A DNA stretch of 64,000 bases from the NCBI RefSeq assembly GCF_943373825.1, contig NZ_CALSBP010000002.1:1725501-1789500 (forward strand), in the 5' to 3' direction. Below the pieces are notes generated by a model that saw only the letters and a program-made list of their open reading frames with translations, ran no database searches and had not been told where the DNA came from. The position numbers and the translations under genes are program-made. Positions 41,412-58,313 of the stretch are shown one piece after another (positions within the stretch are counted from its first letter, which is position 1; every line of letters starts with the position of its first letter). The DNA is from Aquimarina spinulae. Its GTDB lineage: Bacteria > Bacteroidota > Bacteroidia > Flavobacteriales > Flavobacteriaceae.

Positions 41412-43043
41412 ATGAAAACTACCAATATATCTAAGAATAACGTTTTTAAAGTAAGTTCAATTATTCTTTTATTAGCCATCTTTTTTAGTACTGGCTGTAG
41501 TAAGGATGATGATAATACTCCAGAGGTTAAAAGTTCTGAAAAGGAACTAATAAGTTTTAAGTTTTTGTCTGCTAATAATTCGGTGTTGTCTACAGATGTA
41601 ATAGCAAGTATAGATAACACAGCCAAAACCGTTATTGCAACATTACCAATTGATACTCCTTTATCTGCATTAACACCTACAATTGACGTATCTGTAAAGG
41701 CTAGTTTTAATCCTACCGGAGAGCAAAATTTTACCAATCCTCTAACTTTTACCATTGTTGCAGAGGATAGATCAACAACCAACTATTCGGTAACCATTAC
41801 TCGTGAATTAAGTGAAAAAGGAGTCCTGCAGCTTATTGTAGATACTAATCCTGATAACACTTTGGATTGGGATTTAGAAAACACTACCGACTTAAATAAT
41901 TTAAATGGGGTAACTCTTAATGCTCAAGGTAACATTAGTGAATTAGACCTGCCTAATAAAAATCTTGATGAATTACCCTTAGAAATAGGACAATTAACGA
42001 GTTTAGAAGTTTTACTATTAGGGGAGAATAATCTTAGTGTTTTACCAAAAGAAATCGGTTTATTATCAAGTTTGAAAGTATTGAATCTATCGGTAAATCA
42101 ACTTACCTCTTTACCTGATGAAATATCGCTGTTAACTGATTTGGAAGAACTATACTTAAATAGTAATCAATTTAGAACTCTACCATCAGAAATAGGAGCA
42201 TTGACTAAGCTCATAATTTTTTCACTAAACAATAATCAACTTAGTTCAATACCAGAAGAAATTGGAGCGTTGCGTAATCTAACTGATTTAAATTTAAATA
42301 TAAACCAACTTGAAAGTATTCCTTCAGAAATAGGTCAATTGAGTACTCTAGAGCGCCTGATTTTAAAGAATAATCGACTAACCACTCTACCCCAAGAGAT
42401 AGGCTTGTTAACGAACTTAAGTGTTCTTAATTTAGGCAATAATCAACTTAATTCTATTCCAGCTGAATTAGGTTTTCTCATCAACCTAAACTTCTTAGAC
42501 ATTACAAACAATGACTTAACAGTCGTTCCTCGATGTCTTCGATTTTTAGAGCTATTCGGTAATCCAAGCATGGATTTCTTACATGACCTTATCACGTTTC
42601 AATCCACTTCTCAAAAAGATGCACTTATTAGCATCTATAGTGCCAATCCTGGTAATACTTTAGAGTGGGGAGTCGATAATTTTCCTGATGTTGATTTTGA
42701 TGCAAATAATAACCCAACAGGTTTGCGAATAAGTAACAAAAACCTTACCCGATTGCCAGACTTTATAGGAGTACTCACTTCATTAGATATCATCCTCGCA
42801 AATAATAATAGTATAGAAGATATTCCAACATCTTTGGGAAATGTAAGTCCGTTAGTAGTTCTAGAATTTGGGAACAATAAACTAGCGACAGTGCCTTCAG
42901 AGCTAGGTCAATTGGGTAATCTACAACTATTAAATTTAACCAATAACCCATTAATAAATATACCTACCGAAGTCTGTGATTTACAAACATCAAACGGAGG
43001 AATACTTACAATAATCTCTGATACAGGAGAGGGATGTAACTAA
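41412..43043 (+). CDS. Leucine-rich-repeat lipoprotein (first paralogue)
   Basis: Lipobox TGC (Cys29), a DUF5018-like beta domain (about 38-135, ending in NYSVTI), then plant-type leucine-rich repeats of 23 residues with the pattern LTSLEVL-LGENNLSVLPKEIG. A break around 375-425 separates two LRR blocks, and the C-terminus ends CDLQTSNGGILTI...GEGCN. Probably a surface binding protein. It lies 127 bases after the HTCS gene, with a near copy downstream. Confidence 0.9.
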   Translation: MKTTNISKNNVFKVSSIILLLAIFFSTGCSKDDDNTPEVKSSEKELISFKFLSANNSVLSTDVIASIDNTAKTVIATLPIDTPLSALTPTIDVSVKASFNPTGEQNFTNPLTFTIVAEDRSTTNYSVTITRELSEKGVLQLIVDTNPDNTLDWDLENTTDLNNLNGVTLNAQGNISELDLPNKNLDELPLEIGQLTSLEVLLLGENNLSVLPKEIGLLSSLKVLNLSVNQLTSLPDEISLLTDLEELYLNSNQFRTLPSEIGALTKLIIFSLNNNQLSSIPEEIGALRNLTDLNLNINQLESIPSEIGQLSTLERLILKNNRLTTLPQEIGLLTNLSVLNLGNNQLNSIPAELGFLINLNFLDITNNDLTVVPRCLRFLELFGNPSMDFLHDLITFQSTSQKDALISIYSANPGNTLEWGVDNFPDVDFDANNNPTGLRISNKNLTRLPDFIGVLTSLDIILANNNSIEDIPTSLGNVSPLVVLEFGNNKLATVPSELGQLGNLQLLNLTNNPLINIPTEVCDLQTSNGGILTIISDTGEGCN

Positions 43044-43081
43044 TAAAGAGAGTTATCATCCATCCTTTTAAATATAAAATC

Positions 43082-44788
43082 ATGAAAACATATATACCTA
43101 GTAATTTTTATTTAGTTATTATCTCCTTACTTACTTTTTGTATCATAAGTTGTAGTAAAGATGATGAATCAGCTCCTGTCGATATTCTAAAAAGTAATGC
43201 CAAACAAATTACAAGTTTTGTATTTCTGCTTACCAATAATCCGATTGATGTAAATATAGTAGCTACAATAGATGAAGAAAACAAAACCATAGCAGCAACT
43301 ATGCCTGTAGGAACAGATGTTACCGGACTATTACCAGAAATTAAAACATCTACTCTGGCTACAGTAAATCCTGATACAGCAAAGGATTTTACAAATCCTG
43401 TAGAATATGTAGTAACTGCCGAAGATGGTAGTGAAGCAATATATACAGTAATTATAAATGTATTATTAAGTCAGCGGCAAATTTTACAAGCTATTTTGGA
43501 TGTCAATCCGGCAAGTTCCTTAGATTGGGATCTCCAGACCACAACTGATTTGGGTGATCTGAATGGCGTTGTTACAAATACAGAAAGCGAAATTATCAGA
43601 TTATCAGTGAATTCTAAAAATATCTCCGAACTCCCACCAGAAATAGGATTCTTGAAAAAGTTGAATTTTTTGGATGTATCTGGTAATACTATTACTGTTT
43701 TGCCTAATGAAATTACACTTCTAAGTAATTTATCCGAATTAAGGTTAGAAAGAAACCATATTGAAGCACTTCCTTTGGAAATAAGGCAGCTTGTCAATCT
43801 AGAGAAATTAAGTATTTCACAAAATAAATTGACACTCTTATCACCAGAAATAGGAAGATTAAACAAATTAACCATGTTAAATGCAGGTAATAACTCACTT
43901 ACCGTTTTGCCTAATGAAATAGGTCAACTAAGCAATTTGGAGGAACTTTATTTACAAGATAATAAACTTACTTCATTCCCTGAGGAATTTGGGCAACTTA
44001 CCAATATATCAAAACTAAAAATAGGAGGAGATACTTTTTCTACCTTTCCTCTAGAAATATTGCAATTAACAAAATTAGAAGTGTTAGCTATATATGCTAC
44101 CCAAATTAACGCTCTTCCGCCAGAAATAGGTATGCTAAGCAATTTAACTAGTTTAGAATTAATAGGTAATGAACAATTAATGACGATCCCCCCAGAAATT
44201 GGGTTTCTTTCTAATTTAGAAAGCTTAGCATATTATAATTTATTAGATTCTTATGCGTTACCAGAATCTGTTTGTAATCTTATTACCTATAATGGCTTAA
44301 GCATTTTATACTCCCCTATTCCAGGATTTGACTTTCATAATTGTGCAACTATTTCCCCAAAAGATGCCCTTATTAGTATATATACTGCCAACCCAGGTAA
44401 TACCTTGGGATGGAGTGTAGATAATTATCCAGAGGTCACTTTTCATACAAATGGTAATCCAAAAACTATAACCATGAATAACAAAAATATCACTCGAATC
44501 CCCGATAATATTGATCAACTCACAGGATTAGAAAGCTTAAATGTAAATAGTAATAATCTAGAGGTCATTCCCTCATCAATAGGTAATATGAATACTTTAG
44601 AGGTTTTAACATTGGCTAATAATCAATTGAGTACAGTGCCATCTGAGTTGGGGCAGTTAACAGGTTTGGCGCTATTAAGTTTAACAAATAATCCAATATC
44701 CAGTATCCCTTCAGAAGTCTGTGATTTGCAAACATCAAACGGAGGAATACTTACAATCCTAACGGATTCTGGAGAAGGATGTAACTAG
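43082..44788 (+). CDS. Leucine-rich-repeat lipoprotein (second paralogue)
   Basis: Same architecture as the preceding gene: lipobox ISC (Cys24), DUF5018-like domain, LRR block of 23-residue units, a short break and a second LRR block ending in the same CDLQTSNGGILTI tail. The 3' 70 bases are nearly identical to those of the neighbour, while the LRR faces differ. It lies 38 bases downstream and is probably co-transcribed. A tandem duplication with divergence of the binding surface. Confidence 0.9.
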   Translation: MKTYIPSNFYLVIISLLTFCIISCSKDDESAPVDILKSNAKQITSFVFLLTNNPIDVNIVATIDEENKTIAATMPVGTDVTGLLPEIKTSTLATVNPDTAKDFTNPVEYVVTAEDGSEAIYTVIINVLLSQRQILQAILDVNPASSLDWDLQTTTDLGDLNGVVTNTESEIIRLSVNSKNISELPPEIGFLKKLNFLDVSGNTITVLPNEITLLSNLSELRLERNHIEALPLEIRQLVNLEKLSISQNKLTLLSPEIGRLNKLTMLNAGNNSLTVLPNEIGQLSNLEELYLQDNKLTSFPEEFGQLTNISKLKIGGDTFSTFPLEILQLTKLEVLAIYATQINALPPEIGMLSNLTSLELIGNEQLMTIPPEIGFLSNLESLAYYNLLDSYALPESVCNLITYNGLSILYSPIPGFDFHNCATISPKDALISIYTANPGNTLGWSVDNYPEVTFHTNGNPKTITMNNKNITRIPDNIDQLTGLESLNVNSNNLEVIPSSIGNMNTLEVLTLANNQLSTVPSELGQLTGLALLSLTNNPISSIPSEVCDLQTSNGGILTILTDSGEGCN

Positions 44789-46054: not shown

Positions 46055-46136
46055 TCAAGTTTTATCAAAACATTATGACAACAAAAAAAGCCTCACATTT
46101 CTGTGAAGCTTTTCTTTAGTAGCGGGAACAGGACTC
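46055..46136 (-). repeat. tRNA-tail plus terminator repeat, copy 3a
   Basis: About 80 bases that recur with few changes at 46178-46258. On the minus strand the unit consists of the last 19 bases of tRNA-fMet (46117-46135), a hairpin terminator (AAGCTTCACAGAAATGTGAGGC) with T-run and an ATAATG-containing tail. The tRNA homology stops after 19 bases, so this is a truncated copy. Confidence 0.65.
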
Positions 46137-46177: not shown

Positions 46178-46258
46178 TCAAGTTTTACCAACATTATGAC
46201 AACAAAAAAAACCTCACATTTCTGTGAAGCTTTTCTTTAGTAGCGGGAACAGGACTCG
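46178..46258 (-). repeat. tRNA-tail plus terminator repeat, copy 3b
   Basis: Second copy of the unit at 46055-46136. Here the tRNA homology continues to 46282 and forms the left attachment site of the island. The pair indicates repeated integration or duplication at this tRNA locus. Confidence 0.7.
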
Positions 46259-46282
46259 AACCTGTGACCTTCGGGTTATGAG
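46238..46282 (-). repeat. Left attachment site (att): 45-base copy of the tRNA-fMet 3' half
   Basis: Identical over 45 bases to 58238-58282, which is the part of the tRNA-fMet gene from the anticodon loop to the 3' end plus three bases. Homology ends sharply at both sides. The tRNA terminator copy follows on the minus strand, so before integration this was the natural 3' end of the tRNA gene. Confidence 0.85.
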
Positions 46283-46655: not shown

Positions 46656-47639
46656 ATGAATGCCAAGACAAAAAAAGGGTACAAAATAAAATACGAAACT
46701 GATTCAGGAACTTTGATTCAGGGCAACTCTATCAAATTACTAAACAAAGAATTACGTGATAATTTAAAAGGAAAAGTAAATTTAATAATTACATCTCCTC
46801 CTTTCCCTTTAAACAAAAAAAAGAAATATGGGAATGAAAAAGGGGAAGAATATCTAAAATGGTTTGTTGAGATGGCTCCTATCTTTTCGAACCTTCTAAC
46901 TGAAGATGGTTCATTAGTAATAGAAATAGGCAACTCTTGGGAACCCGAAAGACCTATTCAATCACTGCTACATTTAGAGTGCTTAATGGGATTAGTTAAA
47001 CATCCAGAAGCTAACCTCCGACTAATACAAGAATTTATTTGCTACAATCCTTCTAAACTTCCATCACCTGCACAGTGGGTTACAGTGAATCGTTTAAGAA
47101 CAGTTGATAGCTATACACACATATGGTGGATTGCTAAATCAGACTTTCCAAAAGCAGATAATAGTAAAGTCTTAAGACCATATAGTAAGAGTATGCAAAA
47201 CCTTTTAAAACGACAAAATTATAATTCTGGAAAAAGACCATCTGAACACAACATAAGTGAGAAAGGGTTCTTAAAAGATCACGGCGGTAGTATAGCCCAT
47301 AATTTCTTCGAAATGGAGGCAGTGGATCAAAATAGAGATGTTAGACTTCCTCATAGTGTTTTAAGTTTTTCAAACACAAATTCAAGTGATTATTTCTTAT
47401 CAAAGTGCAGAGAAAAAAACATAACACCGCACCCCGCAAGAATGTCAGGAGGTCTTGTAAATTTTTTCATTCAATTTTTAACTGATGAAGATAACCTTGT
47501 TTTAGATCCATTTGGAGGCAGTAACACAACTGGTTATTGCGCGGAAAAATTGAAAAGAAAGTGGCTCTCTTTTGAATTAGATGACGGATATATTAAACAA
47601 GCAATACTAAGAATGAAAGATCCCATATTAAAAGAATAA
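46656..47639 (+). CDS. DNA methyltransferase (N4-cytosine/N6-adenine, beta-type order)
   Basis: The catalytic motif IV TSPPF occurs early (about residue 45-49) and the AdoMet-binding motif I DPFGGSNTTG late (Asp284), the order of beta-class amino-methyltransferases. The middle region (about 130-235) is the likely target-recognition part. Length 327 is normal. It is the first gene of a five-gene operon and is 12 bases from the HerA gene. It could mark self DNA for the nucleases encoded downstream. Confidence 0.88.
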   Translation: MNAKTKKGYKIKYETDSGTLIQGNSIKLLNKELRDNLKGKVNLIITSPPFPLNKKKKYGNEKGEEYLKWFVEMAPIFSNLLTEDGSLVIEIGNSWEPERPIQSLLHLECLMGLVKHPEANLRLIQEFICYNPSKLPSPAQWVTVNRLRTVDSYTHIWWIAKSDFPKADNSKVLRPYSKSMQNLLKRQNYNSGKRPSEHNISEKGFLKDHGGSIAHNFFEMEAVDQNRDVRLPHSVLSFSNTNSSDYFLSKCREKNITPHPARMSGGLVNFFIQFLTDEDNLVLDPFGGSNTTGYCAEKLKRKWLSFELDDGYIKQAILRMKDPILKE

Positions 47640-47651
47640 AATTAAAAATTT

Positions 47652-49673
47652 ATGAGTAATCTACGACAAGAACTTGAAAGTTTAGCCAAGGTCGATATTT
47701 TTGAAGTCGCTAAAGAAAAAAATAATTTTATTGGAAACCCTTTTAAAATAGATTTCAGCAGGACTAGTATTCTAACGTGTGATTATTGGAAGCATAGTGT
47801 TGGAGGTATAGCTCAGGGATGCTTTTTATTAGCCTTTTATGAGAATGATTTTGATGGAGAGGAAGTACATGAAGCTATACTTTTAAGAGCTTTAAAACCA
47901 TGTTCCATACCTAGCGATAGTAGCGTTATTAATTCTAGAATTGAATATTTTAAAGAAGAAATTAATACAGGTGGAAAAAACAGAGAAATTGACCCTTTCA
48001 CAAGATTTGAATTTAGTTGTTCGGGTTTAGAGTGTGCAATTTTAGGAACATTTTATAAAAACAAAAAAGGGCAAATTGAATTCGGAGCTGACATTGAAAA
48101 TTTTTTTTCTCCTCATCTATATAAGGTTTATAAACCGTCTGATGAATATCTCAGATTTATTGTAAATCTTCGTGATACCGATGGTCCATTGAAACCTAAT
48201 TCTAATTTCAAAATAGGCAAAGTAAGGTATAGCTCTACACGTAAAAACTATTCTGAAGAGGAAGACGAAAAAGAAGAAAATAATAAAGAAAGTGTATATG
48301 TTCACACAAAGGATGTTTTAGGTAAAAGAACAGCACTTTTTGGCATGACTAGAACAGGTAAATCTAATACTATAAAATCTTTAATTGAAGCTACTGTAGA
48401 GCTTTCTGAAAAATCCATCTTAGAATTGGATAAAGTCGAAGAAAAATTTGAAGAAAGTGCTAAACCATTTACTGAAGATGAAGTCCCAAAATATTCTGTA
48501 GGACAAATCATCTTTGATGTCAATGGGGAATATGCTAATAAAAATCTACAAGATGGAACAGCCATTTTTGAAAAATATTCATCTAATACTAAAAGATATA
48601 GCATTCTTGACAAAGAGCAAGAAGGGTTTTCAATAATGAAGGTTAATTTTTATAAAGATATTCAAACTGGATTTGAATATCTTCTTGAGTTTCTCCGAGA
48701 AGATAATAGTACTTTTTTAACAGGATTTAAGGTAATAGATTTTACAAGACCAGAAGAAAAAGATTATAATGGATGGAACATTTATAATAAGCATAAATCT
48801 ATCTATCTCTGTTGTTTAAAAAAGGCAGGTTTTGCCCCACCAATCTCTATAAAGGTTAAAATCAAGTCGAATGATAAGATAAATTCCATGATCAAAGAGT
48901 TTGATAAAGATTATGTACATCCTGCTGAACTTACTTTAGAAGAAGTCTATTATTTCTGGGAAATTATTTGGAAAAATAGAGACCATAAGTGTTTTACGGA
49001 ACTAAAGAAAGCTAACAAAGGAAACGACTGGTTAACTGAAGAAATTAGATCATTATTAGTCATGCTATTTCAGAAAAAAGAAAGTGGTCAAATGGTAGGT
49101 GGTTATCAAAAGTTTAAAGTCGCCTTAAAGCTGCATACAAGTTCGATTAATTCATCTTTTCAAAGAGATATTGTGACCCACCTAAGAAAAGGTGGGATTG
49201 TCATAGTAGATTTGTCCCAAGGTAGTCGCGAGGTGCAGCAGATTTTTTCTGAAAAGATTTGTTTAAGTGTATTTAATAGTTCTATGAATAGGTTTATTAA
49301 AGCAAAACCAAATAACTTCATCCAATTTTATTTTGAAGAAGCCCACAATTTATTTCCCAAGAAAGAGGATAAAGACTTAAGCCAAATTTATAATAAAATT
49401 GCTAAAGAAGGAGCTAAACTTAATTTAGGGATGATGTATGCAACCCAAGAAGTGAGTTCAATTAGCTCAAATATTTTGAAGAACACACAAAATTGGTTTA
49501 TTGCTCACTTAAATAATGAGGATGAAATTAAAGAGCTTAGAAAGTTCTATGACTTCAGTGATTTTGCAGATTCACTAATAAGGTTTAGTGCAAAAAATGA
49601 TAAGGGGTATGTCCGAATGAAAACCTATTCAAACCCTTTTATAGTGCCAACTCAAATTAAAAAATTTGTTTAA
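47652..49673 (+). CDS. HerA-type ATPase (DUF87 helicase/translocase)
   Basis: An N-terminal HAS-barrel-like region (to about 200) precedes a RecA-type motor with Walker A GMTRTGKSN (Lys237), a long insertion (about 245-480), Walker B-like FIQFYFEEAHNLFP, sensor-type MMYATQEVSS and a C-terminal arginine region. HerA forms hexameric rings that translocate double-stranded DNA and usually work with a NurA nuclease, which the next gene appears to encode. A poly-acidic linker (EEEDEKEEN) lies near 205-215. Confidence 0.88.
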   Translation: MSNLRQELESLAKVDIFEVAKEKNNFIGNPFKIDFSRTSILTCDYWKHSVGGIAQGCFLLAFYENDFDGEEVHEAILLRALKPCSIPSDSSVINSRIEYFKEEINTGGKNREIDPFTRFEFSCSGLECAILGTFYKNKKGQIEFGADIENFFSPHLYKVYKPSDEYLRFIVNLRDTDGPLKPNSNFKIGKVRYSSTRKNYSEEEDEKEENNKESVYVHTKDVLGKRTALFGMTRTGKSNTIKSLIEATVELSEKSILELDKVEEKFEESAKPFTEDEVPKYSVGQIIFDVNGEYANKNLQDGTAIFEKYSSNTKRYSILDKEQEGFSIMKVNFYKDIQTGFEYLLEFLREDNSTFLTGFKVIDFTRPEEKDYNGWNIYNKHKSIYLCCLKKAGFAPPISIKVKIKSNDKINSMIKEFDKDYVHPAELTLEEVYYFWEIIWKNRDHKCFTELKKANKGNDWLTEEIRSLLVMLFQKKESGQMVGGYQKFKVALKLHTSSINSSFQRDIVTHLRKGGIVIVDLSQGSREVQQIFSEKICLSVFNSSMNRFIKAKPNNFIQFYFEEAHNLFPKKEDKDLSQIYNKIAKEGAKLNLGMMYATQEVSSISSNILKNTQNWFIAHLNNEDEIKELRKFYDFSDFADSLIRFSAKNDKGYVRMKTYSNPFIVPTQIKKFV

Positions 49674-49677
49674 GCTT

Positions 49678-51027
49678 ATGTCTGATAATAAAAGTTTTGA
49701 GCGAGGAAGTAGAATTTCACATAGCTATATAATAAATGATGCAGAAGTAAAAGAGTATTTAAACAATTGTGAGATTCCAATCGAAGCAGAAAATGTAGAT
49801 TTAAATGATAGTCTAAAACACAATATAATATACCCGCGGAAAAATACTATAGAATTTATAGTTACGGTTGATGGTGAGAGTACGACTATTCCTGTAAAGA
49901 AAAGTTTTCCTTCTTCATTAATTACTTTTTTCCAATTCGGATCGCTTCTTATTCAAGGTTCCCATTTAGATGAAATGGAACAAAAACCTTTTGTTTCACC
50001 ATCAGACGTTAATCAATTAAAAAAAATAGAGAGAGAAAAATTTGTATTACCAACTAAAAATGTCGCGTTAAAAAAGGGAGTAGATTTTAGAACAATAGTT
50101 AGAGAAGCTATTCATGAATTCTTTAAAAAAGAGCATTCAGGAAATACACCTCTTCTAGCCACGTTATATTGGTTCATATTCAGATGTTATGATAAAACCT
50201 TAACTAAATCGTTTCATGAACTCTCAAAATGCCCACATTGTGAAACAAAGGATATTCATCTAGAAAGGGAAAAGATTGATTTTTCTAATTATTCTTGGAG
50301 TTGTACAGTTGATAAGTGTAAAAAAGAAATACTAATTACCGATGTATTCAGGCTCTTTGAAAAGGTTGACAAACACGAAAATGCTGATGCAACCTCTATA
50401 ACAACTTATTTAGAGAATGTTGTTGAAAGTTTTTTTATAGTCCATACTATTAAAAGTTTATTGGAAATTGAAGATGGATTGGTAAATCGTTTTTTATTTG
50501 TTAAAGACGGACCTTTGAGTTTTAGTGGAGAGACAGCGAATATGAATAGTCTAATGCAAAATTTAATAACTTACCTAAACAAAAGTAAAAGAATTAACTT
50601 GGTAGGTGTAGAAAATTCAGGGCCATTTGTGGATCATGCACGACAGATAAAAGATAATTTAGATCCGGGTCAAGTATTTCTTTTAAATAACGAACATATA
50701 TATAACTATATAAAATTTGGTAACCCTAAAGAACAACGTTATGGTAGTACATCATATTATAGTGGCAAATTTATTTATAAATCATTTGATGAAAGAATAT
50801 ATGTCTTAACCCTACCCGTTGAGAATCACAATACTTATTACGATCAACCAGAATTAGGTGACTTAAACAATATTGAAGAAATTCTTATGAATATTGATAA
50901 GTTAAGATGTGATATTTATGAAAACGCTATAATTCCAGTTGCTATTGCCAATAAACTTATCTCACTAACCAATCATCCAAGCACAGATATATTGGAGCGA
51001 TTTGCAAAAAAATCTATGGGAAGATGA
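49678..51027 (+). CDS. NurA-like nuclease with zinc ribbon
   Basis: I start at ATG 49678; the longer frame begins with TTG inside herA. Two Asp motifs spaced as in NurA are visible: FIVTVDGES (Asp65) and LFVKDGPLSF (about 275), followed by VGVENSGPFVDHARQI. Between them is an inserted zinc ribbon (CPHC...WSCTVDKC, about 185-215). NurA nucleases resect DNA ends within a HerA ring. Family assignment rests on these patterns and the gene order, since NurA sequences diverge strongly. It overlaps the next gene by four bases. Confidence 0.7.
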   Translation: MSDNKSFERGSRISHSYIINDAEVKEYLNNCEIPIEAENVDLNDSLKHNIIYPRKNTIEFIVTVDGESTTIPVKKSFPSSLITFFQFGSLLIQGSHLDEMEQKPFVSPSDVNQLKKIEREKFVLPTKNVALKKGVDFRTIVREAIHEFFKKEHSGNTPLLATLYWFIFRCYDKTLTKSFHELSKCPHCETKDIHLEREKIDFSNYSWSCTVDKCKKEILITDVFRLFEKVDKHENADATSITTYLENVVESFFIVHTIKSLLEIEDGLVNRFLFVKDGPLSFSGETANMNSLMQNLITYLNKSKRINLVGVENSGPFVDHARQIKDNLDPGQVFLLNNEHIYNYIKFGNPKEQRYGSTSYYSGKFIYKSFDERIYVLTLPVENHNTYYDQPELGDLNNIEEILMNIDKLRCDIYENAIIPVAIANKLISLTNHPSTDILERFAKKSMGR

Positions 51028-53141
51028 TAAAGATTGAAAAACAAAATGAGCCGGAATTTCTATCCTCGCAAACTGTTGAGTTGGCGAAGGAAAAAATGGA
51101 GGAATTTTTCACTTCTAAAAATAGAAGTCAAAAACGATATAATTGGCCTTTTAATAAAGAAATAGATAACCAGCTAAAAAGTCATCTTCATAATGAATTT
51201 CATGGAAAGTGTGGATACTGTGAAATTAAAATACAATCTCCTCAATTAGGTACAATTGATAGATATAGACCCAATAATGGAGTAAGAGACAAAAAGGAAT
51301 ACTATCAAGATTTATATTGGTGGTTAAACTTTAATTGGGAAAATTTAATCTATTCTTGTAAGGAATGTAACCAATATAAAGGAAACTATTTTCCCATTAA
51401 AGGAGTCAGAGCATTAGACAGAAAAAATAATTTTAAAAGTGAACACAGACTTTTGTTAAATCCACATCTAGATGAACCTAACAACCATCTAGGATACCAA
51501 ATACATGGGAAACCTTATCATATTCATGCAATTTCGGATGTAGGTAATCAAACTATAGAATTATTACGTCTGAATAGAACAAACCTTATTGAAGGTAGAA
51601 TAACGGCAAAAAACGAAATAGCTGAATCAATTAAATTATTTATTAGTGATACATCAAATAAGATAGTTAAAAATCGTTTGCGTAATATCTTTGAATTACA
51701 AGATCTTACTGAGGAATTTTTATCTTATAAAAGACAGGTTTTAATAAATGAAATAGATTCAACCCCTTTTTTAGGGGAATTATTAGGTCTGGAGGATTAT
51801 ACAGATGAAAAAAGTTTAATTGAAAAATTTGATTCTTCTTCGAGGGAAGCTTTTTCCAAAGCTGATGTTATAACTAGTGATTATTTTCCTATTGAATATG
51901 CACATATCAAAAACTTTAAATCGATTGATGACCTCAGAATTAATTTTAAAGATGATGAGTTAAATAAAAAATCTTGGTTATTCTTACTTGGTGAAAATGG
52001 AGTTGGAAAAAGTTCTATACTTCAGGCAATAGCTGTTGGTTTAAAGCTAGATAAAAAAAATATAGATAAAAATATAATTCATTCTTTGATTAAGAAAGGG
52101 AAACAAACTTCTGAAATTATAATCAAGGAAAGAAATAGTGAAAATATTATCAAAACTAAGCTAGTACGTAAATCGGGTACAGTTGAACAAAGTGGTAGTT
52201 TTAATTCTTATTTAATTGGCTATGGTTCATTAAGACTTTCAGTTGATGAAATAGAAAGTAATTCAAAAAAGGATACCTCAAAAATTAGTTACCAAAATCT
52301 ATTCAAACCAACTAAAGCTTTGAACGATGTAACTAAATGGCTTAGATCGATACATAAAAAGGATAAAGATTTTTTTGATCGTATAGCATTTTCAATAAAA
52401 CAATTATTGCCACATGACAATTTGGATAATACACTCTCAATTAAAAGCAATAATATTATTCTTGGTGATTCAGACTCATTATTTGGTGAATTAAGTGATG
52501 GATATAAGAGTACTATAATCTTAGCTATTGATATGATGATGAAACTCTCAGGCGCTCATTCCGATATGGATAAAATGTCCGGAATTGTAATTGTTGATGA
52601 ATTAGGAAATCAATTACACCCAAGATGGCAAATGCGAATTGTAAAACAGTTACGGAAAGTATTTCCTAATATAAATTTTATTATATCTACACATCATCCT
52701 CTTTGTTTAAGAGGGGCTGAGAAAGATGAAATATTATTATTAAAGAATATAGAAAATCAAGTAATAGCTGATTCTGAACTACCAAATCCAGCGACTTTAA
52801 GAGTTGATCAGATTTTAGCTTCAGAGTTTTTTGGCTTGAGTAGCCACATAGATCCCAAAATAGAAGCTAAATTTAATAGATATTATGAATTATTAGCAAA
52901 GAATGATAAGGTTAAGGATGAAGAAAAGATAGAGATAGACCAGTTAAAAGATTTTTTAAGAAATAAAAAACAATTAGGCAATTCTTTAAGAGAGGAATTA
53001 ATGTATGCTGTAATAGATAAATTATTAGCAGAAAAAGTCTCTTTTAATAAAAATTCAATAGATAGAGATACCTTAAAAGAGGAAGCTATTAGAAGAGTAA
53101 AAGAAGTTTGGAAGAATTTAAATCTTGATGATAATGATTAA
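51024..53141 (+). CDS. HNH endonuclease-AAA ATPase fusion (Septu-like parts)
   Basis: The N-terminal 200 residues carry an HNH domain of the PtuB/TIGR02646 type: CGYC (Cys63, Cys66), IDRYRP, WENLIYSCKECNQYKGN (Cys112, Cys115) and LLLNPHLDEP. From about 290 to 600 is an SMC/RecF-like ATPase of the PtuA/OLD kind: Walker A LLGENGVGKSS (Lys329), ABC-like LSDGYKS, Walker B GIVIVDELGNQLHP (Asp525) and STHHPL. In Septu these are two proteins; here they are one, nuclease first. It overlaps its neighbours by 4 and 14 bases. Confidence 0.85.
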   Translation: MIKIEKQNEPEFLSSQTVELAKEKMEEFFTSKNRSQKRYNWPFNKEIDNQLKSHLHNEFHGKCGYCEIKIQSPQLGTIDRYRPNNGVRDKKEYYQDLYWWLNFNWENLIYSCKECNQYKGNYFPIKGVRALDRKNNFKSEHRLLLNPHLDEPNNHLGYQIHGKPYHIHAISDVGNQTIELLRLNRTNLIEGRITAKNEIAESIKLFISDTSNKIVKNRLRNIFELQDLTEEFLSYKRQVLINEIDSTPFLGELLGLEDYTDEKSLIEKFDSSSREAFSKADVITSDYFPIEYAHIKNFKSIDDLRINFKDDELNKKSWLFLLGENGVGKSSILQAIAVGLKLDKKNIDKNIIHSLIKKGKQTSEIIIKERNSENIIKTKLVRKSGTVEQSGSFNSYLIGYGSLRLSVDEIESNSKKDTSKISYQNLFKPTKALNDVTKWLRSIHKKDKDFFDRIAFSIKQLLPHDNLDNTLSIKSNNIILGDSDSLFGELSDGYKSTIILAIDMMMKLSGAHSDMDKMSGIVIVDELGNQLHPRWQMRIVKQLRKVFPNINFIISTHHPLCLRGAEKDEILLLKNIENQVIADSELPNPATLRVDQILASEFFGLSSHIDPKIEAKFNRYYELLAKNDKVKDEEKIEIDQLKDFLRNKKQLGNSLREELMYAVIDKLLAEKVSFNKNSIDRDTLKEEAIRRVKEVWKNLNLDDND

Positions 53142-54090
53142 TGTTAAAAGATTAAGATGTCCAGATATTCTAAAAACCAATGCAAACCCTGAAAGCAAAG
53201 GTGAGTGGGAAACCAAAGATGCCATAGAATATTATCGAGATGCGGGAAATCTACAAAAAAAATACAAAAAGACAGGAAAAAAAGGAGATAGGACAAAACA
53301 AAGTTATTCGATATATACTCATAAAACTGTTAGAAATAAACTAAAAAAAATGTTTCATGATAAATGTGCGTATTGCGAAAGTAAAATAACAGCAATCTAT
53401 AATGGAGATATTGAACATTTTAGACCTAAAGGTAAAATTCAAGAAGCTAGCCCATCCAAACCAGGTTATTTTTGGTTAGCTTCAGAATGGGAAAATTTGT
53501 TATTTGCTTGCCCATTTTGTAACCAAACTAATACACACGAATTCAAAAACGGCGAAAAAGTTGAAGAAGCTGTGTTTGGCAAATTAGATCAATTCCCCTT
53601 ATTGTCTGAAAATCATAGACTTAATCACACTCATGGAACCACTTATTTTTCTAATAAAGAATTATATTCTCAATCATTTGACCAAGAGGAATCAGAAAGG
53701 TTATTGCTAAACCCTTGTAAGGATGAAAATATTGAGAAGTATTTTAAATATGATGATCATGGTGCGATAATAATTAACGACAATTTAAATCCGACAGAAG
53801 AAAAACGAGCGCAAACATCAATTTTCACATACGCATTACACAGATTACCTCTAACATTCGCAAGAGAAGAAAAAGTAATTGAAATTAAAGCACAAATTCG
53901 AAGAGTAGAAATTGCAGTAAAAAATTATAGTGACAATTTAGATACAACTGACGAGAAAAAAGTTTGGTTCGAGGGAATAATGCGTGAAGAAATGAAGATC
54001 CTTAAGAAATTTAAAGACATAAATCAAGAATATGCTGGACTTGCAAGACACATAATTAGCAAATATTTTGATGAAGCTAAATTTTTATGA
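53128..54090 (+). CDS. Second HNH endonuclease, PtuB/TIGR02646-like
   Basis: Begins at ATG 53128 (or ATG 53134) inside the end of the preceding gene. HNH features: CAYC (about 80-83), GDIEHFRPKG, WENLLFACPFCNQTN and LLLNPCKDE, the same scheme as the N-terminal domain of its neighbour, so the operon encodes two related nucleases. In retron- and Septu-type defence, such HNH proteins are the effectors. No membrane segment or signal. Confidence 0.85.
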   Translation: MIMINVKRLRCPDILKTNANPESKGEWETKDAIEYYRDAGNLQKKYKKTGKKGDRTKQSYSIYTHKTVRNKLKKMFHDKCAYCESKITAIYNGDIEHFRPKGKIQEASPSKPGYFWLASEWENLLFACPFCNQTNTHEFKNGEKVEEAVFGKLDQFPLLSENHRLNHTHGTTYFSNKELYSQSFDQEESERLLLNPCKDENIEKYFKYDDHGAIIINDNLNPTEEKRAQTSIFTYALHRLPLTFAREEKVIEIKAQIRRVEIAVKNYSDNLDTTDEKKVWFEGIMREEMKILKKFKDINQEYAGLARHIISKYFDEAKFL

Positions 54091-54624
54091 ATCGGATTAA
54101 AGTAAATAAACTTAAAAAGAATCGGTTCTTTATTTAAAAAGCAACTTTAAGCCAAATAAAAACACACCCTCAACCGCTTGATAAAGTAGCTAAACCCTTT
54201 TTTAAACTAAACCCAATCACCTTATTTACAATTAGTTATGTTAAAAAAATTGAATTGTGTAATTTTCTTTTTATAACCATAGAAATCTATAATTTTTGAC
54301 TTCAAAATAAAAAAACTACCACATAAACCTCCCACCTGAATTATGACAAATTTTAAAATTATGGAGTAGTTATTCAAATAAAGTTTTCATCATTTTTATT
54401 GTCCAAAATCTATATCTCCATCCCCATCAAAAGATATATTATCATTGAAGAAATCATAAAATATATAAGGTTAATTCTTAATAAATTAATATATTTATAA
54501 CACCCACAAAATCCCCACCTAATTTGTTTTAATCAATTAAGTATTAAACATTTCTGTTTTATACATTTTTTTGTCGTCATCATTGCACTGAAACATTCAT
54601 ATAATTTCAAAAAAAATTATTCTT
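54091..54624. other. Junction between the two island modules
   Basis: No gene is seen. The stretch 54283-54320 resembles 57965-58002 near the right end of the island (about 31 of 37 positions), and the following CCTGAATTATG resembles CTTGAATTATGG at the left end (46387). A weak stem (AAAGAATCGGTTCTTT) lies at about 54116-54131 and could end the defence transcript. The promoter of the next gene should lie in 54500-54620. Confidence 0.45.
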
Positions 54625-57868: not shown

Positions 57869-58193
57869 AAAATCAAAAAAGATGTTTAAAAATATAACTA
57901 TGAGAATTCTTATTCATTAAAAAAGATTAGAAAACTACAGTTCAATTTTATACTTATGACCACAAAAATCTATAGTTTTTGATTTTAAAATTAAAAATAC
58001 CGCGCACCAATACCGTGCACCAAAACCAAAAAAACAACACGATTATTTTTCAAAATAGATTATAAAAAACTCAATATCAATGTTTTAAACTATTTATTTA
58101 TTGTAAAATTAATATTTGTGATCTTCGGGTAGGTAACAGGAAGATTGTATATTTTTTATAGTAAAAAATAAGGTTTTCAAGTAAAATAGAAGT
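57869..58193. other. Right inner end of the island
   Basis: No gene. Contains the CGCACC/CCAAAACC repeats at 58000-58027 and the stretch 57965-58002 that is repeated at 54283-54320. AT-rich DNA fills the rest up to the tRNA terminator. Confidence 0.45.
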
Positions 58194-58237: not shown

Positions 58238-58282
58238 TAGTAGCGGGAACAGGACTCGAACCTGTGACCTTCGGGTTATGAG
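58238..58282 (-). repeat. Right attachment site (att) within tRNA-fMet
   Basis: The 45 bases identical to 46238-46282. They cover the anticodon loop (CTCATAA), the anticodon 3' strand, variable loop, T arm, acceptor 3' strand and CTA tail, a typical tyrosine-recombinase target. Confidence 0.85.
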
Positions 58283-58313
58283 CCCGACGAGCTGCCTACT
58301 GCTCTATCCCGCG
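58241..58313 (-). tRNA. Initiator tRNA-fMet (anticodon CAT)
   Basis: The full cloverleaf can be folded: acceptor CGCGGGA with TCCCGCT, D stem GAGC/GCTC, anticodon stem TCGGG/CCCGA around CTCATAA, T stem ACAGG/CCTGT with TTCGAGT. Initiator marks are the unpaired C1-T72, the A11-T24 pair and three G-C pairs next to the anticodon loop. The tail is CTA, so CCA must be added after transcription. 73 bases. Confidence 0.95.

Follow-up and report, generated by a model that had tools for sequence, protein, structure and literature searches.

A conserved five-gene operon joining HerA, a NurA-fold nuclease and a methyltransferase to Septu PtuAB suggests a layered defence system

Introduction

What would a DNA methyltransferase, a HerA-type DNA pump, a NurA-type nuclease and a pair of HNH proteins do in a single operon? 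The question is raised by a 64,000-nucleotide stretch of the Aquimarina spinulae genome (hereafter the window; contig NZ_CALSBP010000002.1, positions 1,725,501 to 1,789,500, forward strand), in which a sequence-only reading had noted five such genes and supposed an anti-phage role for them. We found that other bacteria carry these five genes in an identical arrangement, a pattern suggestive of a single, layered and unnamed defence system. Our preferred reading, to which we assign a probability of roughly 0.5, is that the operon is one composite system of two layers, a methylation-gated HerA–NurA restriction layer and PtuAB as its back-up.

Gene content of the operon

The five open reading frames (ORFs) are co-directional on the + strand and span 46656-54090, and the ORF list confirmed the coordinates that had been given for them earlier. 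The genes and their junction are as follows.

46656..47639, + strand: gene 1, DNA methyltransferase (ORF and PF01555)
47652..49673, + strand: gene 2, HerA/FtsK-family translocase (ORF and PF01935)
49678..51027, + strand: gene 3, NurA-family nuclease (ORF 49666-51027, ATG at 49678; predicted fold)
51024..53141, + strand: gene 4, PtuA with a fused N-terminal HNH-like domain (PDLC00292)
53125..54090, + strand: ORF of gene 5, PtuB-like HNH nuclease (ATG at 53128 or 53134; PDLC00319)
51024..51027, + strand: ATGA overlap of the NurA stop and the PtuA start (identical four bases at 13/13 loci)

For the NurA-like gene, ATG 49678 is the most probable start, and the gap between HerA and NurA is therefore 4 bases. 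The spacing (gaps of 12 and 4 bases, then a 4-base overlap of genes 3 and 4) agreed with the sequence-only reading, and the last overlap, which it had given as 14 bases, is 17, 14 or 8 depending on the start of gene 5; alignment to relatives makes 53134 the likely start, with 53128 as an alternative ATG. The identities that it had assigned (methyltransferase, HerA, NurA, HNH-AAA and HNH) were likewise recovered through PF01555, PF01935, a predicted fold and PADLOC models, with a reservation for gene 4 given below.

Gene 1 matched PF01555 at 2.8e-29, and its best match among PDB sequences was M.PvuII (1boo, 1.3e-64). It carries motif IV as TSPPF and motif I as DPFGGSNTT, the residues of which were invariant in 11/11 aligned proteins except G287, the aligned proteins being 77-88% identical to the window protein. 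These similarities identify it as a putative beta-class, M.PvuII-like DNA methyltransferase that probably methylates cytosine at N4 and would serve in self-marking.

Gene 2 matched PF01935 with 36.6 bits (cut-off 23.2) and carries Walker A at 231-239 and a Glu-Glu pair at 562-563. Across 15 HerA rows, G236, K237, S238, E562, E563 and Q599 were invariant, so that Walker A, the Glu-Glu pair and the sensor Gln of the DUF87 domain are all present. Searched against PDB sequences, the single protein matched TdpA at 6.5e-18 and a profile of 15 HerA relatives matched it at 2.4e-35, the next match being 1.3e-18; by sequence comparison, TdpA thus appears to be the closest solved relative of this HerA. 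The antiphage HerA models of NCBIfam matched weakly (47.4 bits against a cut-off of 800).

For gene 3, no match was found in PADLOC (E≤0.001) or NCBIfam (E≤0.01), and Pfam gave nothing beyond a chance match of 0.058. The NurA family PF09376 matched 10 of 86 gene 3 relatives at E≤0.01, the window protein not among them. Profile A1 of gene 3 returned nothing from PDB sequences at E≤1, and the broader profile A4 gave eight weak matches (best 0.026), several of them to zinc-finger proteins. The predicted structure has the RNase H-like NurA fold and is closest to TdpB, which we take chain G of 8wfd and 8wet to be from the PDB titles; it also carries a four-cysteine zinc ribbon. This model was built from an 80-row alignment, made up of 68 of the 120 best relatives (of 413) and 12 locus rows, and replaced a first one with a predicted local distance difference test score of 69.5 that had come from a shallower alignment. 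On the predicted fold, gene 3 is a putative TdpB-like NurA-family nuclease. D65 occurs in 83/86 rows of the gene 3 alignment and D277 in 80/86, and these residues presumably correspond to the NurA active-site acids.

Genes 4 and 5 had been likened to the effectors of Septu and retron systems, and the relation proved to be more than a likeness: gene 4 matched the PADLOC PtuA model PDLC00292 at 5.9e-222 over its full length (1-703), and gene 5 the PtuB model PDLC00319 at 1.6e-93. Because both match PADLOC Septu models, genes 4 and 5 already belong, as predicted PtuA and PtuB, to a system with a name, and the gene content of Septu type I, a PtuA ATPase gene with an adjacent PtuB HNH gene, is present. 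Neither outcome that would have refuted the earlier reading, a named system with the same five genes or a lack of conserved order, occurred: no PADLOC or NCBIfam model matched gene 3 at the limits given above, and the order recurs in other genomes.

The AAA residues of gene 4 were invariant at 13/13 loci, as were H98, N124 and the zinc cysteines of gene 5. Gene 5 matched TIGR02646 with 53.9 bits (cut-off 52.15), and gene 4 matched it at 6.2e-11 over residues 45-192, below the model cut-off. The HNH-AAA label for gene 4 held for the fusion and the AAA residues, and not for residue 80, the position of the HNH catalytic His: it is Arg in the window and eight relatives (9/13) and His in the other 4/13. 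The HNH-like domain keeps its zinc cysteines and Asn107. Since gene 4 has Arg80 while gene 5 retains His98 and Asn124, gene 5 is probably the sole active HNH nuclease in the clade of the window, and the gene 4 domain probably a platform for it. In the Septu system EcB88, defence needs the HNH residues of PtuB and the Walker residues of PtuA (PMC13096335).

Conservation of the gene order and of the HerA–NurA core

The complete five-gene order, the recurrence of which had been proposed as a check, was kept at 11 distinct loci: the window, L013-L018 (two Chryseobacterium, Pedobacter, Kaistella and two uncultured genomes), L021, L022, L058 and L059. Conservation at 11 distinct loci exceeds chance. 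L019 has methylase remnants at a contig end, and L020 (Puia dinghuensis) has HerA-NurA-PtuA-PtuB; these two and the 11 five-gene loci are the 13 with the identical ATGA overlap. Together with L023-L031 and L048-L053, they make up the 28 loci with a full-length gene 3.

HerA lies next to gene 3 at 28/28 of these loci, and a DNA methyltransferase adjoins the HerA–NurA pair at 22/28. Besides the gene 1 type, the adjoining enzyme is a D12-type methylase at L023, L024, L025 and, in convergent orientation, L053, and a PF01555 methylase with a different motif order at L027-L031, L051 and L052. The adjoining methylases thus comprise more than one kind, drawn from two Pfam families, and some of them are related to each other. 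At L026, a type I restriction-modification operon lies immediately after NurA, with HsdM two genes away. In a methylase control covering 532 ORFs of 32 loci, 25 of 27 matches, counting L057, neighboured HerA–NurA or what is left of it, and the other two were HsdM of L026 and L029 201-1781; the control is biased because its baits came from those same loci.

In a tree of 27 HerA proteins (L031, L051 and L060 excluded), where four long branches make parts unsure, the PtuAB group corresponded to one change with weak support (73/65), the other PF01555 group to one change (88/74) and the D12 type to two. On our reading, the clade of the window added PtuAB, probably as a back-up, to a putative modification-gated HerA–NurA restriction core. 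Two decayed loci counted outside the 28, L060 and L061, have kept the methylase and lost HerA or most of NurA, which is the direction expected, in two cases only, were the methylase host-protective. At L061 (8547-9947), what is left of NurA covers roughly model positions 1 to 107 and is fused in frame to the methylase, with an intact HerA upstream. We dropped from the counts L057 (the same locus as L014), the second Vibrio phage (H7), and L062 and L063, weak partial matches (4.5e-5 and 2.1e-4) with no HerA found.

The distribution of gene 3 is patchy. Relatives occurred in 12 of 395 same-phylum genomes, its own included (16 with the broader profile, 4 of them partial), in 6 of 395 same-order genomes, in 5 of 72,556 plasmid records and in 2 of 50,697 phage records, both Vibrio phages. 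Scanning named genome contigs with the gene 3 alignment gave 8 loci, and scanning genome contigs with the single protein gave no matches; profile A1 found none in viral contigs. Plasmid searches with two distant NurA relatives returned the same five records. Of the same-phylum relatives, those with names were Bacteroidota.

Further observations concern the core at individual loci. The HerA gene of a Deferribacter megaplasmid (L051, 4126-7924) is interrupted by an IS200/IS605 element with TnpB, and the core also travels on a phage: a Vibrio phage record (L053, 1-5750) combines HerA and NurA with an integrase and with a D12 methylase in convergent orientation. At further loci, HerA–NurA has different toxin or restriction genes as neighbours:

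L048 9372-10430: AbiTii
L024 7011-8153: Fic
L029 9148-10176: PIN_8
L026 10041-15271: type I restriction-modification

We then surveyed PtuA in 380 same-phylum genomes, scoring two candidates per genome. The fused PADLOC model matched in 17 at E≤1e-40 and at full length in 3, all of which carry the HerA–NurA–methylase operon. In the remaining 14, the best match began at model position 292 or beyond, so these look, by sequence, like plain PtuA. With the window PtuA as query (E≤1e-30), the same three of 395 same-phylum genomes were found, and no phage record matched gene 4 at E≤1e-20. In other phyla, four plasmids (Priestia, Gluconobacter, Klebsiella and Rhizobium) carry fused PtuA without HerA–NurA; the adjacent gene is annotated as a retron HNH endonuclease in Priestia and Gluconobacter and as hypothetical in Klebsiella and Rhizobium, and a retron reverse transcriptase lies beside fused PtuA in Priestia and nearby in Rhizobium. 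Given these plasmid and operon contexts, the fused PtuA pair occurs alone, near retrons and with HerA–NurA. At several loci, PtuB is followed by a long gene (538 and ~577 residues) of no recognised family (L013 14447-17792, L014 14441-17771, L021 15530-17146 and L058 3053-4783); the three tested had no Pfam or PADLOC match.

Exchanged stretches in HerA and PtuA

Two of the proteins contain a hypervariable stretch, located by pairwise identity in 40-residue blocks between L022 and L058 (HerA genes L022 6611-8614 and L058 10031-12052).

48633..49232, + strand: hypervariable middle of HerA, residues ~328-527 (L022/L058 comparison mapped onto the window)
51606..51884, + strand: hypervariable stretch of PtuA, residues ~195-287, between the HNH and AAA domains (L022/L058 comparison)

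Between L022 and L058, HerA identity was 34-41% over residues 321-520 (five central blocks), against 92-100% up to residue 240, 93-98% past 560 and 58-78% in the shoulders. PtuA fell to 24-32% in residues 201-320, against 77-100% elsewhere (mostly 90-100%), save for one shoulder block of 62%. NurA, PtuB and the methylase of the same pair showed no such step beyond the first 40 residues of the methylase. The window HerA dips likewise against L013, L015, L018 and L020 (15-32% in residues 361-480), and the PtuA dip recurs in L013/L014 and L015/L016 (10-50%). The middle stretch of HerA was apparently exchanged between near-identical ends, as though by recombination, and it and the PtuA linker look, by sequence, like swapped cassettes. 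Other pairs do not follow this pattern uniformly: in L013/L014 and L015/L016 the dip in HerA is slight or absent (at least 75% per block), and L013/L016 combines a mild HerA dip (50-65% in 3/4 blocks) with no dip in PtuA.

The variable stretch of HerA falls between Walker A and Walker B, a region that we take to be the helical-bundle domain of HerA, and it is probably equivalent to the DNA-capturing helical bundle. In Thermococcus HerA, that domain moves and captures DNA (PMC12977600).

The tRNA-Met island

The earlier description of a tRNA-borne island was supported by an exact partial copy of a tRNA gene on the far side of the operon.

46238..46282, - strand: island boundary, exact 45-bp copy of the 3′ part of tRNA-Met (sequence match)
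58240..58313, - strand: intact tRNA-Met (cat), attachment site (ARAGORN, Rfam)

The operon sits within the island of ~12 kb that these two features delimit. A genome of the same species (G743) shares the tRNA-Met together with its right flank, and the window DNA bounded by the two repeats had no match in the 17 kb read there, the left flank lying outside it; the same was found in a genome of the same genus, again over 17 kb with the left flank outside, so that no empty site was seen in either. In two relatives (G762 and G765), copies of the tRNA-Met repeat enclose different DNA, which marks the site as a hot spot of insertion. Pfam recognised no integrase in the eight main ORFs of the island, nor any type IIG enzyme or match to a reverse transcriptase, and the three ORFs outside the operon had no Pfam match at E≤0.001. 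The tRNA was the sole Rfam match at the gathering score, with no msr-msd found. Additional direct repeats by the island ends (46055-46136 and 46178-46257; 54261-54314 and 57944-57997) suggest nested or repeated insertions, and a second partial copy of the tRNA end lies at 46117-46136. Outside the island, 41412-44788 holds two neighbouring, similar lipoprotein-like genes, the first of which, scanned with Pfam, has leucine-rich repeats.

Proposed mechanism and alternative explanations

In the first layer of the system that we propose, the methyltransferase would mark host DNA, and a HerA hexamer topped with a NurA dimer would capture DNA, pump it by ATP hydrolysis and cut both strands, so that unmarked DNA, whether phage or plasmid, would be degraded. 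In the second, PtuA–PtuB (an ABC-ATPase and an HNH nuclease), translated in step with NurA, would be restrained by the HerA–NurA–methylase layer and freed as a cell-arresting tRNA or DNA cutter once that layer is engaged or inhibited. By analogy, HerA–NurA–methylase would take the place of the retron as sensor or restraint of PtuAB. The gene identities, fold, order, overlap and modularity were computed here; the block of HerA–NurA by methylation, the back-up role of PtuAB and any anti-phage role are our inference.

Pumping and cutting by HerA–NurA, and the toxicity of PtuAB with its restraint in retrons, are known from the literature. In the Tdp system, phosphorothioation reportedly keeps TdpAB from attacking self DNA. 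Archaeal HerA–NurA cuts both strands of double-stranded DNA in an ATP-dependent manner that needs NurA Asp49, with the DNA passing through the HerA ring (PMC12977600). PtuAB of retron Eco7 depletes tRNA-Tyr and stops growth, effects that the other components of the retron neutralise (PMC11555353). Septu EcB88 cleaves tRNA-Tyr upon infection (PMC13096335), and in Ec83 the multicopy single-stranded DNA keeps PtuAB inactive, until an infecting phage promotes degradation of that DNA (reviewed in PMC12948488).

Several points weigh against this reading. PtuAB of retron Eco4 likely does not target tRNA (PMC11555353). HerA probably does not read the site of the methylase through its middle stretch, because that stretch varies while the methylase is near constant. 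No relative of gene 1 was found in the genome of L020, and no methylase lies adjacent to HerA–NurA at L020 or on the cyanobacterial plasmids L048-L050 (4/28), so the methylase is not always needed. PtuAB may be merely co-transcribed with the core, because it occurs elsewhere without HerA–NurA. Finally, TdtA–NurA of Thermus serves DNA donation (PMC5365140), and an anti-phage role is not the sole reading because that related HerA–NurA–methylase set donates DNA.

The alternative that survives best, possible though doubtful, is that two independent systems, HerA–NurA–methylase restriction and Septu, merely share a transcript. HerA–NurA with a methylase and no relatives of genes 4 and 5 found nearby (L023-L025, L027-L031 and L051-L053) is what it predicts, as is fused PtuA without HerA–NurA on four plasmids, whereas the order kept at 11 loci, the ATGA overlap at 13/13 and the finding of full-length fused PtuA solely with the operon among 380 same-phylum genomes speak for a joined system. 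A little less probable, and in our view unlikely, is a guarded form of restriction, in which the self-mark would be fixed by one conserved methylase, the variable HerA and PtuA stretches would set recognition of the invader or escape from its inhibitors, and PtuAB would sense the state of HerA–NurA and arrest the cell when a phage blocks it.

The main rival to a defence role is DNA donation, which we rate lower again: in an ICETh1-like element, HerA would export host or element DNA, NurA would trim it, and the methylase and HNH proteins would mark and nick it. In Thermus, one ICETh1 operon encodes the HerA-family TdtA together with a NurA-like protein, a type IIG enzyme and a methylase of family PF01555; the ~14-kb island that holds it sits at the 3′ end of a tRNA gene and has repeats of 47 bp. 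Deletion mutants that lack TdtA, NurA or the type IIG enzyme lose DNA donation (transjugation) or show it reduced by orders of magnitude, so that all three are required for its efficiency (PMC5365140). The window island, which spans ~12 kb, has a 45-bp repeat and holds HerA, a NurA-fold gene and a PF01555 gene, resembles ICETh1 as described there. However, neither a type IIG enzyme nor an integrase was recognised among its eight main ORFs, PtuAB is established as a toxin/defence pair, the Vibrio phage record with an integrase and HerA–NurA–methylase better fits superinfection resistance, and the exchanged stretches also disfavour donation.

That HerA–NurA repairs DNA ends of the host or element, with the other genes as passengers, is the least likely reading and highly improbable: HerA–NurA is reported to resect DNA ends in archaea (PMC12977600), and RefSeq labels 3 of 5 plasmid relatives of gene 3 as the repair nuclease NurA, but presence in only 12 of 395 same-phylum genomes (its own included), the island location with no match at the same tRNA of a same-species genome, the methylase linkage and the exchanged stretches all count against it.

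If the composite two-layer reading is true, HerA–NurA, usually viewed as a repair machine, would be a restriction engine gated by ordinary methylation, and exchange of parts within the DNA pump would be a means to keep pace with phages. The Septu PtuAB pair would be a plug-in effector carried by retrons and by a restriction core, in some hosts a regulated second layer and not a stand-alone system, and annotation that reports PtuA-PtuB alone would miss this layer.

Comparison with known systems

In a full-text literature search that mostly leaves subscription papers outside, no paper among the matches listed had the five-gene set. The excerpts of PMC10013915, PMC12948488 and PMC12198126 do not describe it, and those of PMC10853773 and PMC12839542, two texts in which the term NurA does not occur, concern other HerA architectures. 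The PADLOC paper notes a helicase-methylase-ATPase set (Hma) as frequent with Septu type I (PMC8565338). PtuAB, HerA, NurA, the methylase and the idea of the core are known, and the composite seems unreported in the literature searched.

With Septu and type I-A retrons, the operon shares PtuAB, genes 4 and 5 being full-length PADLOC matches with the AAA and PtuB HNH residues intact. It differs from Septu in the N-terminal HNH-like domain of PtuA, which in the clade of the window has lost the catalytic His, and in the HerA-NurA-methylase operon, and from retron I-A/Septu type II in that no reverse transcriptase was recognised beside the window PtuAB. The two-gene systems HerA-DUF4297 and SIR2-HerA also combine a HerA ATPase with an effector, whereas the window has a NurA-fold nuclease and a methylase, and its match to the antiphage HerA models is weak. 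ICETh1 shares the HerA-family ATPase, NurA, the PF01555 methylase and the tRNA island (47-bp repeats in ICETh1), with a type IIG enzyme and an integrase where the window has PtuAB; the role shown for ICETh1 is donation (PMC5365140).

A methylase paired with a nuclease, the hallmark of restriction-modification, is present in the five-gene order at 11 loci, with a methylase adjoining the pair at 22/28. Iyer et al. in 2004 reportedly proposed a NurA-superfamily nuclease as the endonuclease of a new restriction-modification system; the operon agrees with that prediction in its NurA-type nuclease, and the PtuAB layer and the exchanged stretches are not known to be part of it. Also similar is the Tdp system, in which, as An et al. 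are said to have described in Nat Chem Biol in 2025, TdpA–TdpB works with phosphorothioation, a modification that reportedly keeps the pump-nuclease off self DNA. By Pfam, none of the five operon genes, to which this search was confined, is the phosphorothioation enzyme TdpC. The window HerA is nearest to TdpA by sequence and gene 3 nearest to TdpB by predicted fold, whereas a methyltransferase stands in place of the phosphorothioation enzyme and PtuAB is added.

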